DNA of 64,000 nucleotides from Bosea sp. (in: a-proteobacteria). GTDB lineage: Bacteria; Pseudomonadota; Alphaproteobacteria; Rhizobiales; Beijerinckiaceae. The number at the start of each line of letters is the position of its first letter. Within the stretch, counting starts at the first letter, position 1. A program made the translations under genes and the position numbers. Under the pieces are notes generated by a model. It searched no databases and was not told the DNA's origin. It saw nothing but the letters and a program-made list of their open reading frames with translations. The stretch covers positions 1,726,698 through 1,790,697 of the forward strand of contig JAAVVV010000001.1 in NCBI GenBank assembly GCA_023910605.1, in the 5' to 3' direction. Positions 5,839 through 19,134 of the stretch are shown one piece after another.

Positions 5839-6960
5839 ATGTTCAAAAGCTTCTTCCAGGGCGGGTTCGAGTGCTCGACGCATCGTCGTGACGATGGCGT
5901 GCGCCTCGACATCATCGCCGCCACCCGCCACGATGTGATGGCGGCGCAGGACTATGCGCTGCTGCACGGGCTAGGCGTGTACACGGTTCGCGATGGCGCG
6001 CGCTGGCATCTGATCGAGGGCGCGCCCGGTCATTATGACTGGTCGAGCCTGCTGCCCATGCTGGACGCGGCCAGGCTGACCCGCACCGAGGTGATCTGGG
6101 ACCTGCTGCACTATGGCTGGCCGGACCATCTCGACATCTGGTCGAGCGCCTTCGTGGACCGGTTCGCGGCCTTCGCCGGCGCGCTCGCCCGGCTCGTTCG
6201 CGATCGCGGCGACGAGGTTCCGTGGTACTGCCCGGTCAACGAGATTTCCTTCATGTCATGGGCGGGAGGGGACTTCGCCATCTTCAACCCGTGCGCGCGC
6301 GGGCGGGGCGACGAACTCAAGCGCCAGCTGGTTCGTGCGGCCATCGCGGCCATGGATGCGATCTGGGCGGTCGATCCGCGCGCCCGCTTCGTCCACGCCG
6401 ATCCGCTGATCCATGTCCATCCCGTGCCGGGAAGCTCGTCGACGCAGGGCCGCGCCCGCCGCCACACCCGCGCGCAGTACCAGGCCTGGGACATGATGTC
6501 CGGCCGCTCCTGGCCCGGGCTTGGCGGCAAGCCGGAATATCTCGATGTGCTGGGCGTGAACTACTATTGCCACAACCAGTGGGTGGTGGGGGCGGGCCCG
6601 CTGGACTGGCAGGGCAGCGACAGCCGCTTCATCCCCTTGCGCGACCTGCTGGCGCGAGCCCATCGCCGCTACGGACGGCCCATGTTCATCGCGGAAACCG
6701 GGATCGAGGCCGGGCTGAGGCCGCAATGGTTCGACTATGTCTGCGGCGAGGTCTTCGCAAGCATGGAGGCGGGGGTCCCGATCGGCGGAATCTGCCTCTA
6801 TCCCATCATGAACCATCCCGGCTGGGATGATGATCGCCACTGCCCCAACGGCCTGATCGACTACGACCGCCGCAGCTTCCGCCGTTCCGTCCATGCGCCG
6901 TTGGCCGAGGCGCTGTTTCGCCAGCGGGATCTCCGCGCCGGGCTGCGACGAAGCGCCTGA
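5839..6960 (+). CDS. Clan A glycoside hydrolase (GH1-like beta-glycosidase)
   Basis: 373 residues with no signal peptide. A TIM-barrel glycosidase is indicated by CPVNEISF (likely acid/base Glu about 135) and FIAETGIEAG (likely nucleophile Glu about 286). LDVLGVNYYCHNQW precedes the second Glu as in GH1 and GH5-like enzymes. It is shorter than classical GH1 beta-glucosidases (about 450), so substrate is uncertain. The gene faces a UDP-galactopyranose mutase and a glycosyltransferase across a shared terminator, which suggests a role in the same glycan or glycolipid. The ribosome site before the ATG is weak. Confidence 0.75.
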   Translation: MFKSFFQGGFECSTHRRDDGVRLDIIAATRHDVMAAQDYALLHGLGVYTVRDGARWHLIEGAPGHYDWSSLLPMLDAARLTRTEVIWDLLHYGWPDHLDIWSSAFVDRFAAFAGALARLVRDRGDEVPWYCPVNEISFMSWAGGDFAIFNPCARGRGDELKRQLVRAAIAAMDAIWAVDPRARFVHADPLIHVHPVPGSSSTQGRARRHTRAQYQAWDMMSGRSWPGLGGKPEYLDVLGVNYYCHNQWVVGAGPLDWQGSDSRFIPLRDLLARAHRRYGRPMFIAETGIEAGLRPQWFDYVCGEVFASMEAGVPIGGICLYPIMNHPGWDDDRHCPNGLIDYDRRSFRRSVHAPLAEALFRQRDLRAGLRRSA

Positions 6961-11762: not shown

Positions 11763-12430
<668 letters not shown>

Positions 12431-12434
12431 TACC

Positions 12435-13736
12435 ATGACATCGGATTCCATTCTCGACTCTGCGCTCGCCGCGCGCATCAAGGCCTCGGTTGCGGAAGGG
12501 TTCGATGCGCAGATCGAGCTGACGAAGGCGTTGATGCGCTTTCCCTCGCAGCGCGGGGCCGAGCATGCTGTGCAGGATTTCGTCTTTCGCGAAATGCGCC
12601 GGCGCGGCCTGTCCATGGACCGGTTCGAGATGGACGAGGCCGCGCTTGGCCGCCATCCCGGCGGCGGCCCCTTCTCGCCAGATCACTCTCGCGCTCCGAT
12701 CGTGGTCGGCATCCATCGCCCTCGCGATGAGAAGGGCCGTTCGCTCATCCTGCAGGGCCATGTCGATGTCGTGCCGGAAGGCCCGCACGACATGTGGACG
12801 AGCCCGCCCTATGAGCCGCGCATCGAGGGGGATTGGCTCTACGGGCGCGGCGGCGCCGACATGAAGGCCGGCCATGCCGCAAGCTTCGCCTGTCTCGATG
12901 CGCTGGCGCGCCTTGGCCTCCAGCCGGCAGCGACGGTTTATTTCCAGTCGGTCGTCGAGGAGGAGTCGACCGGCAATGGCGCGCTTATGACTCATTTGCG
13001 CGGCTACACGGCCGATGCGGCGTTGATCCCCGAGCCCGAGGACGAGAAGCTGGTGCGCGCCAATGTCGGCGTGCTCTGGTTCGAGATCGAGGTTCGGGGC
13101 CAGCCGGCCCATGTCCGCGAAATGGGCTCCGGCGCCAACGCCATCGACGCAGCTTACCGCGTCATCGGCGATTTGCGCCGGCTTGAAGCCGAGATCAACG
13201 CGCGCAAGGCTGGCCGCGAGCATTTCGCGGAGCATGACCATCCGATCAACCTCAACATCGGCAAGATCGAGGGCGGCGACTGGGGCTCTTCCGTGCCGTG
13301 CTGGTGCAAGGTGCAGTGCCGCCTCGCCATCTATCCCGGCGTCTCGGCAGCGGAAGCGGCGCGCGAGGTCGAGGCCTGGGTCGCCGCCTTCGCACGGTCC
13401 GACCGCTACCTCGCCAACAACCCGCCCAGGGTCACGTTCAACGGGTTCTTCTCGGAGGGCTACGTGCTCGATCCCGGCTCGGATGCGGAATCCGTGCTGG
13501 GCCGCGCCCATCGCGAGGCCACCGGCCGCAAGCTCGAAACCGTCATGACCGCAGGCTATCTCGATACCCGCGTCTACGCCTTGTATGACCGCATTCCGGC
13601 TCTGTGCTACGGGCCGATCTCGCGGAACATCCACGCCTTCGACGAGGCGGTCAGCGTTGAATCGCTGCGCCGCATCACCACCGCCATGGCGCTGTTCGTT
13701 GCCGAATGGTGCGGCGTCGAGGCGGTTGCGCCATGA
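12435..13736 (+). CDS. M20 family metallopeptidase (ArgE/DapE-like deacylase)
   Basis: 433 residues from ATG 12435. Metal-site motifs are intact: [11 protein letters not shown] (first His and catalytic Asp), [11 protein letters not shown] (bridging Asp), [10 protein letters not shown] (general-base Glu-Glu), and a late [17 protein letters not shown] (His). The dimerisation domain occupies roughly residues 220-340. Enzymes of this group hydrolyse N-acyl or amide bonds of small amino acid derivatives in the cytoplasm; the substrate is not evident. The ABC ATPase directly upstream is a pseudogene, so this gene may be the surviving part of a peptide-utilisation operon. The ribosome site is poor. 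Confidence 0.88.
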
Positions 13737-14622: not shown

Positions 14623-14648
14623 AACGTGCCTGCCATTGCGAAGGTTCC
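14623..14648 (-). promoter_or_regulatory. EcfG-type promoter of DUF1269 gene
   Basis: The minus strand reads GGAAC-N17-CGTT exactly. The CGTT lies 48 bases from the start at 14574. It is back to back with a plus-strand EcfG box at 14666. Confidence 0.75.
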
Positions 14649-14665
14649 GCCGGGCAGGCGCGGGC

Positions 14666-14691
14666 GGAACTGCCTTGTGTCCGCTGGCGTT
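14666..14691 (+). promoter_or_regulatory. EcfG-type promoter of PNPOx-like gene
   Basis: GGAAC-N17-CGTT exactly, 43 bases before the start codon at 14735. Confidence 0.75.
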
Positions 14692-15296: not shown

Positions 15297-15322
15297 GGAA
15301 CCTTCTCCAGTTCGAGGGCGTT
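15297..15322 (+). promoter_or_regulatory. EcfG-type promoter of DUF1328 gene
   Basis: GGAAC-N17-CGTT exactly, 34 bases before the ATG at 15357. It probably drives both the DUF1328 gene and the 24-residue ORF after it. Confidence 0.75.
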
Positions 15323-15727: not shown

Positions 15728-16513
15728 TCAGGCCACCTTGCGGCTGGCCCGGCGGTCGAAGAACAGAGCCTGGCTGATCGCGGCCTTCACGGCGTCGGGC
15801 TGGAAGGGCTTGGTGATGAGAAAGGCCGGCTCCGGCTTGTTGCCGGTCAGCAGCCGCTCCGGATAGGCCGTGATGAAGATCACCGGCACGTCGATCGAGG
15901 TCAGGATCTCGTTGACCGCTTCAAGGCCGGAGCTGCCGTCGGCAAGCTGGATGTCCGCCAGCACGAGGCCGGGGCGACGCATCCTCACCAACGCGATCGC
16001 TTCCTTGTGGGTGCGGGCGATGCCCGTCACGTCATGGCCAAGCTCCTGCACCATCGCTTCGATGTCGAGCGCGATGATGGGCTCGTCCTCGATGATGAGC
16101 ACGCTGGTCGCCACCTGCTCGGCGATCTCGCGGCCGGCCTGCTCCACAAGCTGCATCGCCTCGATCGGGCGACGGCCAAGGATCAGCGCCACATCTTCGA
16201 TGCTGAAACCTTCCACGGTGCGAAGCAGGAAGGCCTGTCGCGGCAAGGGCGTCAGCCCATCGAGGTTCATCTCGACCGCGCCGCGATCGATGGGCAGGCG
16301 TTCAAGATGGCTGGCCGCAGACCACATCTGCACGAACAGCTTGTAGACCGCGATGCGCCCCGGCAGCTCACTCGGAAACACGGAAGGGTCAGCCACCACC
16401 GCCTCCAGCGTCGCCGCGACATAGGCGTCACCGCTATGCTGGGAGCCGGTCAAGGCGCGGGCATAGCGCCTAAGATACGGAAGATACGACGCAATTTCTC
16501 GAGCAATGGACAT
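15728..16513 (-). CDS. phyR: General stress response anti-anti-sigma regulator PhyR
   Basis: 261 residues. Residues 1-130 resemble an ECF sigma factor (IASYLPYLRRYARALTGSQH; LPRQAFLLRTVEGFSIEDVA) but lack real DNA-binding function in the family. Residues 137-255 are a receiver domain (VLIIEDEPIIALDIEAMV), with likely phosphoacceptor Asp 187 in VLADIQLAD and the FATxY-type FITAYPE and LITKPF segments. Phosphorylated PhyR binds NepR and frees EcfG. It is divergent from nepR-ecfG with about 185 bases between, the standard arrangement of this locus. Confidence 0.97.
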   Translation of the reverse strand: MSIAREIASYLPYLRRYARALTGSQHSGDAYVAATLEAVVADPSVFPSELPGRIAVYKLFVQMWSAASHLERLPIDRGAVEMNLDGLTPLPRQAFLLRTVEGFSIEDVALILGRRPIEAMQLVEQAGREIAEQVATSVLIIEDEPIIALDIEAMVQELGHDVTGIARTHKEAIALVRMRRPGLVLADIQLADGSSGLEAVNEILTSIDVPVIFITAYPERLLTGNKPEPAFLITKPFQPDAVKAAISQALFFDRRASRKVA

Positions 16514-16589: not shown

Positions 16590-16614
16590 GGAACCTTCCT
16601 GTTTCTGACGGGTT
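16590..16614 (+). promoter_or_regulatory. Probable EcfG autoregulatory promoter of nepR-ecfG
   Basis: GGAAC-N16-GGTT in the phyR-nepR intergenic region, one mismatch in the -10. Autoregulation of nepR-ecfG by EcfG is usual in this order, which raises confidence despite the mismatch. It leaves an 84-base leader to the ATG at 16699. Confidence 0.5.
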
Positions 16615-16698: not shown

Positions 16699-16902
16699 AT
16701 GACGTGTGAACCGGTGAGCGGCGATGCCGATCGTGTTGGCGACGGCCAACCGAACGGGGCTGTCGAACTTGACGCCAAGATTCAGGAAGCGCTGGGGCGC
16801 GCGCTCAAGGCCCATTACGACGATCTGGTGAGCGCTCCCATACCGGACCGCTTCCTCGTTCTTCTGGCCGAACTCGAGGCCAAGGAACGCCGCGATGACT
16901 GA
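16699..16902 (+). CDS. nepR: Anti-sigma factor NepR
   Basis: 67 residues from ATG 16699; the longer open frame begins with a TTG inside the promoter and is unlikely. The conserved core is ELDAKIQEALGRALKAHYDD followed by LVSAPIPDRFLVLLAELEA, which holds the two NepR helices and the PIPDRF linker. NepR sequesters EcfG until phospho-PhyR takes it away. Its end overlaps the start of ecfG by 8 bases. Confidence 0.92.
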   Translation: MTCEPVSGDADRVGDGQPNGAVELDAKIQEALGRALKAHYDDLVSAPIPDRFLVLLAELEAKERRDD

Positions 16903-17494
16903 TAACCGCTCCTCCGTTCTGTTTCGTGAGCGGTTGATTGCGGAGATCCCCAACCTCCGGGCTTTCGCGACATCGCTTTCGGGCTCCGTGCAGCAGGCTG
17001 ATGACCTTGTGCAGGACACGCTGCTCAAGGCGTGGAGCCATGCGGACAGCTTCATCGAGGGCACCAACATCCGCGCCTGGCTCTTCACCATCCTGCGCAA
17101 CACCTATTACTCGCTCTACCGGCGTCGTGGCCGCGAGGTGCAGGACACGGACGGCATCTACTCCAGCAAGGTCGCTGTCCCCGGCAACCAGGAAAGCGCG
17201 ATTGATCTGGCCGACTTCCGCAACGCGCTGGCGAAGCTCCCGGAGGAGCAACGCGAGGTGCTGATCATGGTCGGCGCCACCGGCCTGTCCTATGAGGAGA
17301 CCGCCGAGATCTGCGGCGTGGCCGTCGGCACGATCAAGAGCCGCGTGAACCGCGCCCGCAACAAGCTCGCCGAAATGCTTGGCATGACCGATGCCGCCGA
17401 GGCGCCTGCGGAACGGGCAGGGGAACGGGCAGGGGATGGGGGCAAGGAGCTGCGTGCCGGGACTGGACGAAGGCAACCCACATTGACGCCATGA
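16895..17494 (+). CDS. ecfG: ECF sigma factor EcfG (general stress response)
   Basis: 199 residues. Region 2 is seen at SGSVQQADDLVQDTLLKAWS and FIEGTNIRAWLFTILRN; region 4 at LPEEQREVLIMVGATGLSYE and CGVAVGTIKSRVNRARNKLA. This is the typical EcfG (ECF15) pattern. It should read GGAAC-N16/17-CGTT promoters, several of which are present in this window. It overlaps nepR at its start and the kinase gene at its stop (ATGA). The last 35 or so residues are an Arg/Gly-rich extension beyond the usual end. Confidence 0.95.
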   Translation: MTDNRSSVLFRERLIAEIPNLRAFATSLSGSVQQADDLVQDTLLKAWSHADSFIEGTNIRAWLFTILRNTYYSLYRRRGREVQDTDGIYSSKVAVPGNQESAIDLADFRNALAKLPEEQREVLIMVGATGLSYEETAEICGVAVGTIKSRVNRARNKLAEMLGMTDAAEAPAERAGERAGDGGKELRAGTGRRQPTLTP

Positions 17495-19134
17495 TCGACC
17501 TGTCTGGCTTCCAGACCGTTCGCGCGCGCCTGCTGGTCCTGATGGCGTTCGTGGTGATTCCCATCGCCACCATGAGCCTTTTCCTCGCCACGACGAGTTA
17601 CCGCTCCGTGACGGCGAGCATTGCATCGGCCCAGACCGAAGCGGTTTCCGGTTATGCGGTGAGAGCCAGGCTCTGGTTCCGTGGCTCGTTGCGGAGCCTC
17701 GTTTCCGTGGTGCGGAGCGTGCAGGCTCTGGAGCCTGCCAACTCCGCTTGCGACGCCATGCTCAGGAACGTGCTGGTTGGCATCGACGGTTTCGAGGCGA
17801 TCCGTATCGTGATGGGCGATGGGATCAATTGCCACGCCACGGACAGGTCCGAACTCACGCCCGGGGTCATGGATGCGATCGCTAGCGAAGAGGTCAGGCG
17901 CGCTGCGACCACGATCTGGAGCGGGCCTGAGATCGCGCAGGCCCGGTATGGCGCGACGACCATCGATGGCCGGCTGCATCTGGTCGTCCATGCCGTCAAT
18001 CCATCCAGTGATGAGCGCTCCTGGCGGGCAACGGTGCTGATCGACCCTGCGCTGTTGCAGCAGGCCTTCGCCATCGGCGCCACCGACGGCACGACGGCTG
18101 TCGCGCTGATGATGGAGGGCGGGAAGGTGTTGGTCGAGCGCGGGACATCAGGGCAGGACTGGCTGCCTCTTCGCGAAAGCTTCAGCCCGGAGCCGCGAAG
18201 GTGGCAGTCGCAGCGGCCGGGGGACAGTTCCTATGTCTATGGCACGCAGATGGTTGCGGAGCCCAACCTCTACGTTCTGGCCCGCTTCGACAACGCGGCC
18301 TCCGGCGCGGCCTATCTGCAATTCCTCGTGTTGTGCGTCACGCCATTGCTCACGCTGGTCGTGCTCTTCATCACCTATGCCCGCGTCATCCAGTTCGATG
18401 TTGTGCGCTGGATCCGCGGCATCGAGACGGCGGCGCTCGCTCACAAGGTCCATCCCGAGGCTCTCGCCCCGGTCGGGCCTTCGATGCCGCAGGATATCAG
18501 GCTCGTGGCCGAAGCCTTCAACGCGATGGTGGAGGATGCCAACCGGCGCGAGGAGGCCCTGCGCCTGACCCTCGACGCCAACCAGTTCCTGATGAAGGAG
18601 TTGAATCATCGCGTGAAGAATTCGCTGCAGGTGATTCAAAGCCATCTGGCTCTTTCGCGCCGGCAGCGCGACGCCGGGCACAGGATGCATTTCGTGGAAA
18701 CCGAGGCGATGGTGCAAGTGCTCTCGGTCGCCTACCGGCTTGCGCTCATCGAAGGGACCATGCGGCCCGTGGCGATCAAGCCCTTCGTCGAGGAGATCAT
18801 GGATTCGCTGTCCACGTCGCTGCGGCGCGCGGATCAGTGGACGGATGTGCGGGTCGCTGCCGATGCCGGGCTGGTCGTCGACCGGGTGATACCGCTTGGC
18901 CTTGGTCTGGTGGAAGCCGTGATCGCCGCCCTTCAGGCAGACGGTGCGCGCAAGGTGATGGCGCAGATCGAAACGCTGGATGATGGCCAGCTGGAACTGG
19001 TGGTCACCACCGATGGCGTCTTGAACCCGGCAAATCCGGCGCCGCGCATCGTGATGGGCCTGGCCGGGCAATTGGGCGCTCTGGTGGCCGACCGCGCCCC
19101 CGGCGTCGTGATGCACTGGATCTTCCGTCCCTGA
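17491..19134 (+). CDS. Membrane sensor kinase of the PhyK/HisKA_2 type with degenerate ATPase domain
   Basis: 547 residues. A membrane helix (about 14-32) and a second one (about 272-297, QFLVLCVTPLLTLVVLFITY) enclose a periplasmic sensor of 240 residues. A HAMP-like linker leads to the HisKA_2 motif KELNHRVKNSLQVIQSHLAL with His 373. The ATP-binding part is abnormal: where relatives have the N-box NELVTNALKHA this protein has VEAVIAALQAD, and no DxGxG G-box is visible. It may therefore act on PhyR without kinase activity of its own, as a phosphatase or scaffold. It is the last gene of nepR-ecfG-kinase (ATGA overlap with ecfG), so PhyR is its likely partner. Confidence 0.88.
   Translation: MIDLSGFQTVRARLLVLMAFVVIPIATMSLFLATTSYRSVTASIASAQTEAVSGYAVRARLWFRGSLRSLVSVVRSVQALEPANSACDAMLRNVLVGIDGFEAIRIVMGDGINCHATDRSELTPGVMDAIASEEVRRAATTIWSGPEIAQARYGATTIDGRLHLVVHAVNPSSDERSWRATVLIDPALLQQAFAIGATDGTTAVALMMEGGKVLVERGTSGQDWLPLRESFSPEPRRWQSQRPGDSSYVYGTQMVAEPNLYVLARFDNAASGAAYLQFLVLCVTPLLTLVVLFITYARVIQFDVVRWIRGIETAALAHKVHPEALAPVGPSMPQDIRLVAEAFNAMVEDANRREEALRLTLDANQFLMKELNHRVKNSLQVIQSHLALSRRQRDAGHRMHFVETEAMVQVLSVAYRLALIEGTMRPVAIKPFVEEIMDSLSTSLRRADQWTDVRVAADAGLVVDRVIPLGLGLVEAVIAALQADGARKVMAQIETLDDGQLELVVTTDGVLNPANPAPRIVMGLAGQLGALVADRAPGVVMHWIFRP

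Follow-up and report, generated by a model that had tools for sequence, protein, structure and literature searches.

The closest described systems are two proteins that hand phosphate to the response regulator PhyR through a conserved His. In Sphingomonas melonis Fr1, PhyT (formerly PhyP) is encoded at the phyR locus and combines a membrane anchor and a putative periplasmic sensor with a DHp that keeps HRxxN and an ATPase domain that is degenerate. According to the excerpted text of Gottschlich et al. (2018; PMC5898713), it transfers phosphate from SdrG~P to PhyR in a His-dependent manner, binds PhyR at the membrane and had no PhyR phosphatase activity in vitro. The same excerpts already state that PhyT-type regulators are conserved among Alphaproteobacteria, and they name the dimeric phosphotransferases ChpT and Spo0B, which belong to other pathways, beside PhyT as degenerated histidine kinases. 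In Caulobacter crescentus, PhyK, with a putative periplasmic domain, is described in the available part of PMC5964349 as a His phosphotransferase from the single-domain regulator MrrA to PhyR; its ATP site is dispensable and, despite a conserved CA domain, autophosphorylation was not seen. Here we compare with these a protein encoded in a 64,000-nucleotide stretch of a Bosea sp. genome (the window), of which we found no description in the open-licence literature.

Architecture of the locus and loss of the ATP motifs

The phyT-type gene follows ecfG, its ATG overlapping the ecfG TGA, and the parts of the gene and its locus are collected in Table 1. Sites of the form GGAAC-N16/17-SGTT, which we take to be the EcfG-type promoter motif, occur eight times in the 64-kb window where 0.98 are expected. 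Those at 14623-14691 and 15297-15322 adjoin genes for DUF1269, pyridoxamine-oxidase-like and DUF1328 proteins, which suggests that these genes are members of the stress regulon. Elsewhere in the window (11794-13736, plus strand) an ABC-transporter ATPase is seemingly split over two overlapping frames, its end running into an M20 peptidase ORF (563 aa); this is either a broken gene or a sequence error.

Table 1. Features of the phyR-nepR-ecfG locus and of the phyT-type gene (positions in the window)
Feature	Position	Strand	Basis
phyR, anti-anti-sigma response regulator	15728..16513	-	PF22029, PF22233, Response_reg
EcfG-type promoter-like site, 5' of nepR-ecfG-phyT	16590..16614	+	GGAAC-N16/17-SGTT
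nepR, anti-sigma factor	16699..16902	+	PF18557, E 1e-13
ecfG, sigma factor	16895..17494	+	Pfam
phyT-type gene, membrane-bound HisKA_2 pseudokinase, 547 aa	17491..19134	+	ORF, Pfam, orthologues
First membrane helix, residues ~14-32	17530..17586	+	hydropathy
Predicted periplasmic dCache-like sensor domain, residues ~40-270	17608..18300	+	AlphaFold model, Cache chemoreceptor matches
Second membrane helix, residues ~276-294	18316..18372	+	hydropathy
DHp helices, HisKA_2, residues ~363-443	18577..18819	+	Pfam, conservation
Codon of phosphorylatable His373 in HRVKN	18607..18609	+	motif in sequence/alignment
Remnant CA domain, ATP motifs absent, residues 446-547	18826..19131	+	alignment, model
N-box position, VEAVIAALQ in place of an ExxxNAxK-type motif	18910..18936	+	alignment with intact kinases

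The first-pass annotation of the window had described a sensor kinase that retains its His and has lost its ATP-binding motifs, an observation that was confirmed in every point tested. The HisKA_2 helix is intact, with His 373 in HRVKN, and residues 370-443 cover positions 1-75 of the 76-position HisKA_2 model (PF07568; E 3e-9). When the protein is aligned with intact kinases, the N-box Asn and the Lys-His after it are indeed gone (residues 474-485 read VEAVIAALQADG); the only Asn residues beyond residue 445, at 512 and 515, both lie outside the N-box, and a D.G.G pattern occurs nowhere in the 547 residues. Set against the features of an active HisKA_2 kinase, the DHp is thus present and both the N-box Asn and the G1 DxGxG box are absent. 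Pfam gave no HATPase family match in the protein at E<=1, and not one of 30 aligned orthologues had such a match at E<=0.01; in a control, the intact HisKA_2 kinase of the same genome matched HATPase_c (7e-8). This silence alone is no proof, because the two HWE kinases of the genome also had no HATPase match.

Structural model

In the AlphaFold model (mean pLDDT 82, pTM 0.52, 30 sequences), a long initial helix is followed by an alpha/beta domain predicted to lie in the periplasm and then by a second membrane helix that continues into the DHp bundle; the CA remnant is also of alpha/beta type. EL346 and Brucella LOV-HK are kinases that use ATP. Their kinase domains are like the modelled protein in DHp and CA fold (residues 373-547 with EL346, 4r3a: Z 18.7, 165 residues, rmsd 3.1; residues 362-547 with LOV-HK, 5epv: Z 14.5, 176 residues, rmsd 3.2) and differ from it by the motifs that it lacks. 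As to an ATP pocket, the CA fold persists in the model, but the nucleotide motifs are gone and no long lid is seen between residues 507 and 520. Residues ~32-275 resemble Cache chemoreceptor domains, those of TlpQ and PctA among them (Z about 15). Kelch-like PDB sequence matches to the sensor part, obtained with the whole protein as query at E 0.06 or worse, were judged spurious. ChpT and Spo0B were not among the structural matches listed, which carries no weight either way.

Conservation within the genus and among relatives

The phyT-type protein was matched in 57 of 61 genus genomes, and 56 of the 57 copies are single near-full-length open frames. The copy in G029 (C1:3462146-3463734, L322) is split between two frames. 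PhyR, scored as present by a sigma-like domain over the cut-off, was found in the identical set of 57 genomes, and neither protein was found in G026 (with a sub-cut-off match only), G031, G034 or G046. This complete overlap is one of co-inheritance and co-loss, the genomes being kin and not 57 independent events. phyT and phyR stood together in all 40 genus loci examined. Every member of two overlapping sets of genus orthologues (30/30 and 40/40) has HRVKN and none has the N-box Asn; because the one is universal and the other absent throughout, the loss of the motif is not a matter of chance or decay. Across the window protein and 29 orthologues, mean column identity is 0.91 in DHp helix 1, 0.69 in the CA remnant and 0.60 in the periplasmic part, where Cys 87 and Cys 114 are invariant in all 30 sequences. 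Conservation that peaks in the DHp of a protein without ATP motifs supports a phosphate relay.

A scan of named genomes yielded 80 loci, of which L083-L122 hold relatives of the locus protein from Bosea, Phreatobacter and other Hyphomicrobiales, and L123-L162 hold HisKA_2 kinases without NepR alongside. Matches to PhyR, NepR and EcfG accompany 39 of the 40 relatives; the exception, L120, starts at a contig edge and has none. At L085 the best NepR match (6262-6702, plus strand) lies downstream of phyT and not before ecfG. All 40 relatives keep HRVKN and lack both the N-box Asn and DxGxG, whereas the Asn is retained in all 40 of the other kinases, most of them with a D-x-G motif, so that the Asn separates the two groups completely. 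The annotation was thus right to describe a His-retaining receptor that is a fixed member of the nepR-ecfG operon and is not expected to bind ATP normally.

One relative in the scan, from the MAG 'PAR1' (L122:3779-4546, plus strand), is a 255-aa version of the pseudokinase in the same position after ecfG. It has one apparent membrane helix and the sequence HRVKNSLQ, its CA remnant lacks the ATP motifs, and there is no periplasmic domain. If this version, seen in a single MAG, is real, the membrane-anchored DHp plus CA remnant would be the indispensable part, which would fit relay and sequestration rather than sensing alone.

To place the loss of the Asn, we surveyed NepR matches in 193 genomes of the class and 120 of the order and examined 94 loci (all 34 class matches outside our own genome and 60 of the 78 order matches), counting as kinases those with the pattern HR.[KM]N[NS][LF][QSTA] and a profile score of at least 90. 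Nine of nine kinases within 10 bases of ecfG or phyR in the order sample lack the N-box Asn; L227, which is 1.9 kb off and has the Asn, was left out of the nine. The class sample gave 17 kinases within 600 bases, ten with Asn and DxG, four with Asn only and three without Asn, one of which (L191) nevertheless keeps DNG; the kinases of L184, L185 and L186 and the second kinase of L193 are intact and lie 1.3-1.6 kb off. In a tree built without the CA columns, the 19 Asn-less Hyphomicrobiales rows fall on one side (support 90/93, not starred), and a single clade of all 22 Asn-less rows was not rejected (p-AU 0.25). The simplest reading of these sequences is that the Asn was likely lost once, long ago, in Hyphomicrobiales.

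A candidate phosphate donor

If the protein relays phosphate, an SdrG-like single-domain regulator is expected in the genome. An exact pattern search did not find the strict SdrG motif PFxFATG in our own genome. The pattern has sites in 22 of the 61 genus genomes, and among 12 such loci inspected, L071, L075, L077 and L082 are receiver domains; the others looked like chance frames. A profile made from SdrG, Sma0144 and the L071 receiver was run over the genus genomes. In 39 of 40 genus loci (L283-L322) it found a single-domain receiver of ~120-130 aa, 1.0-2.6 kb from phyR and on the strand of phyR. For the regulator from one of them (L305), SdrG is the best match in the PDB (E 1.6e-10), and members of this regulator family also lie near phyR in the Phreatobacter loci L084, L086 and L087 and in L092. 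A donor is not always detectable, since at E<=1e-8 L301 (G054) yields nothing of the kind beyond PhyR itself, although both phyT and phyR are present.

The window has no SdrG-like gene near phyR; the genes on that side are those for the DUF1269, pyridoxamine-oxidase-like and DUF1328 proteins. Our genome has one at C1:1963471-1963815, divergent from the gene for a 1287-aa HWE kinase. Among the own-genome loci compared, its product ranks first on the locus-regulator profile with 69-70 bits, the genome's own PhyR coming second with 29. In the PDB it matches SdrG best (E 2.6e-8); it reads PFAFLSG where SdrG has PFxFATG. Since it shares only 29-38% identity with the locus regulators, we call it SdrG-like and not an orthologue. 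A different candidate, the L032 regulator beside the HisKA_2 kinase, was dropped; its family is large and found widely in the genus, and it has a good match in the PhyR-less G034 but only weak ones in G043 and G054, which are close relatives. The genome encodes three further HWE/HisKA_2 kinases, a HisKA_2 kinase with N-box, DxGxG and a HATPase match and two HWE kinases with the motif HELATNA.

Discussion

We propose that the Bosea protein is quite probably a PhyT-type phosphotransferase, a His relay from an SdrG-like regulator to PhyR; this assignment is made from anatomy and locus. Like proteins of the PhyT/PhyP type, it is encoded at a phyR-nepR-ecfG locus, carries HRxxN in its DHp and has a degenerate ATPase domain, and hydropathy, the model and the Cache matches predict a membrane anchor and a periplasmic sensor. 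An SdrG-type single-domain regulator is encoded in the same genome, although without the strict PFxFATG motif. By analogy with PhyT and PhyK, HWE/HisKA_2 kinases encoded elsewhere would phosphorylate the SdrG-like regulator, which would donate its phosphate to His373 of the DHp dimer; His373 would hand it on to the PhyR receiver domain, and PhyR~P would then remove NepR from EcfG. In unstressed cells, PhyR would probably also be held at the membrane by the pseudokinase and so be shielded from direct phosphorylation. In the predicted structure, the CA domain retains its fold though not its ATP motifs, and the two membrane helices lie on either side of the periplasmic dCache-like sensor. The arrangement differs from Sphingomonas, where, in the portion of PMC5898713 at hand, the sdrG and pak genes are scattered, whereas an SdrG-like gene lies near phyR in the 39 genus loci (not in the window).

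The annotation had proposed that the protein is a phosphatase or a co-receptor, and phosphotransfer is much likelier than either. The phosphatase proposal is in effect the original PhyP model, in which the His-bearing DHp strips phosphate from PhyR and keeps the stress response off. The excerpts of PMC5898713 report that a Sphingomonas phyP knockout was obtainable only in stress-response-impaired strains and that PhyP broke PhyR/NepR complexes in a His-dependent manner, and reverse transfer from PhyR~P via His to the regulator could mimic a phosphatase. However, the absence of such activity for PhyT on PhyR in vitro in those same excerpts, together with donor genes that would be superfluous to a phosphatase, makes this role unlikely. 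As a co-receptor, the protein would form mixed dimers with active HWE/HisKA_2 kinases that phosphorylate His373 in trans. The well conserved DHp and the three such kinases of the genome would suit this, but the sole sequence match among the three is distant (35% over residues 362-539), we found no such case in the open-licence literature, and the single-domain regulators at the locus favour a relay. Our analysis gave the co-receptor proposal no supporting evidence, and we consider it very improbable.

A working but atypical kinase, holding ATP in a divergent pocket, would account for the CA fold retained in the model. It is hard to reconcile with the lack of the N-box Asn and of G1 in every orthologue checked and with a model that has no long lid; even PhyK, with its conserved CA domain, was not seen to autophosphorylate in the part of PMC5964349 available, and we regard such a kinase as extremely improbable. 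A decaying gene without function, to which the two-frame copy in G029 might point, has practically no claim to belief given the otherwise open frames of the genus and the conservation of DHp helix 1.

The relay may itself be regulated. A tentative, rather doubtful extension is that an extracellular ligand or redox state, acting through the dCache-like domain and its two conserved Cys residues, determines which of three things the pseudokinase does with PhyR: hold it, pass phosphate to it or drain it. It is just as speculative that such gating would give the general stress response of this clade a second, envelope-level input, exerted at a protein that is not a kinase and in which the ATP-less CA remnant would be the docking and gating part.

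Proteins of this kind are already known, and what is new here is modest: how widely the motifs have been lost, that an SdrG-like gene lies close to phyR in the genus, and that a form without the sensor exists, which would be a natural deletion experiment. In the available parts of PMC5898713 and PMC5964349, the phosphotransferase reading of PhyT and PhyK rests on two model organisms. A version without ATP motifs is fixed across the whole genus and in other Hyphomicrobiales, with the proposed donor gene usually near phyR, and Bosea and its kin would thus offer a clean system in which to test how general the relay is and what a CA remnant and a sensor do without catalysis.
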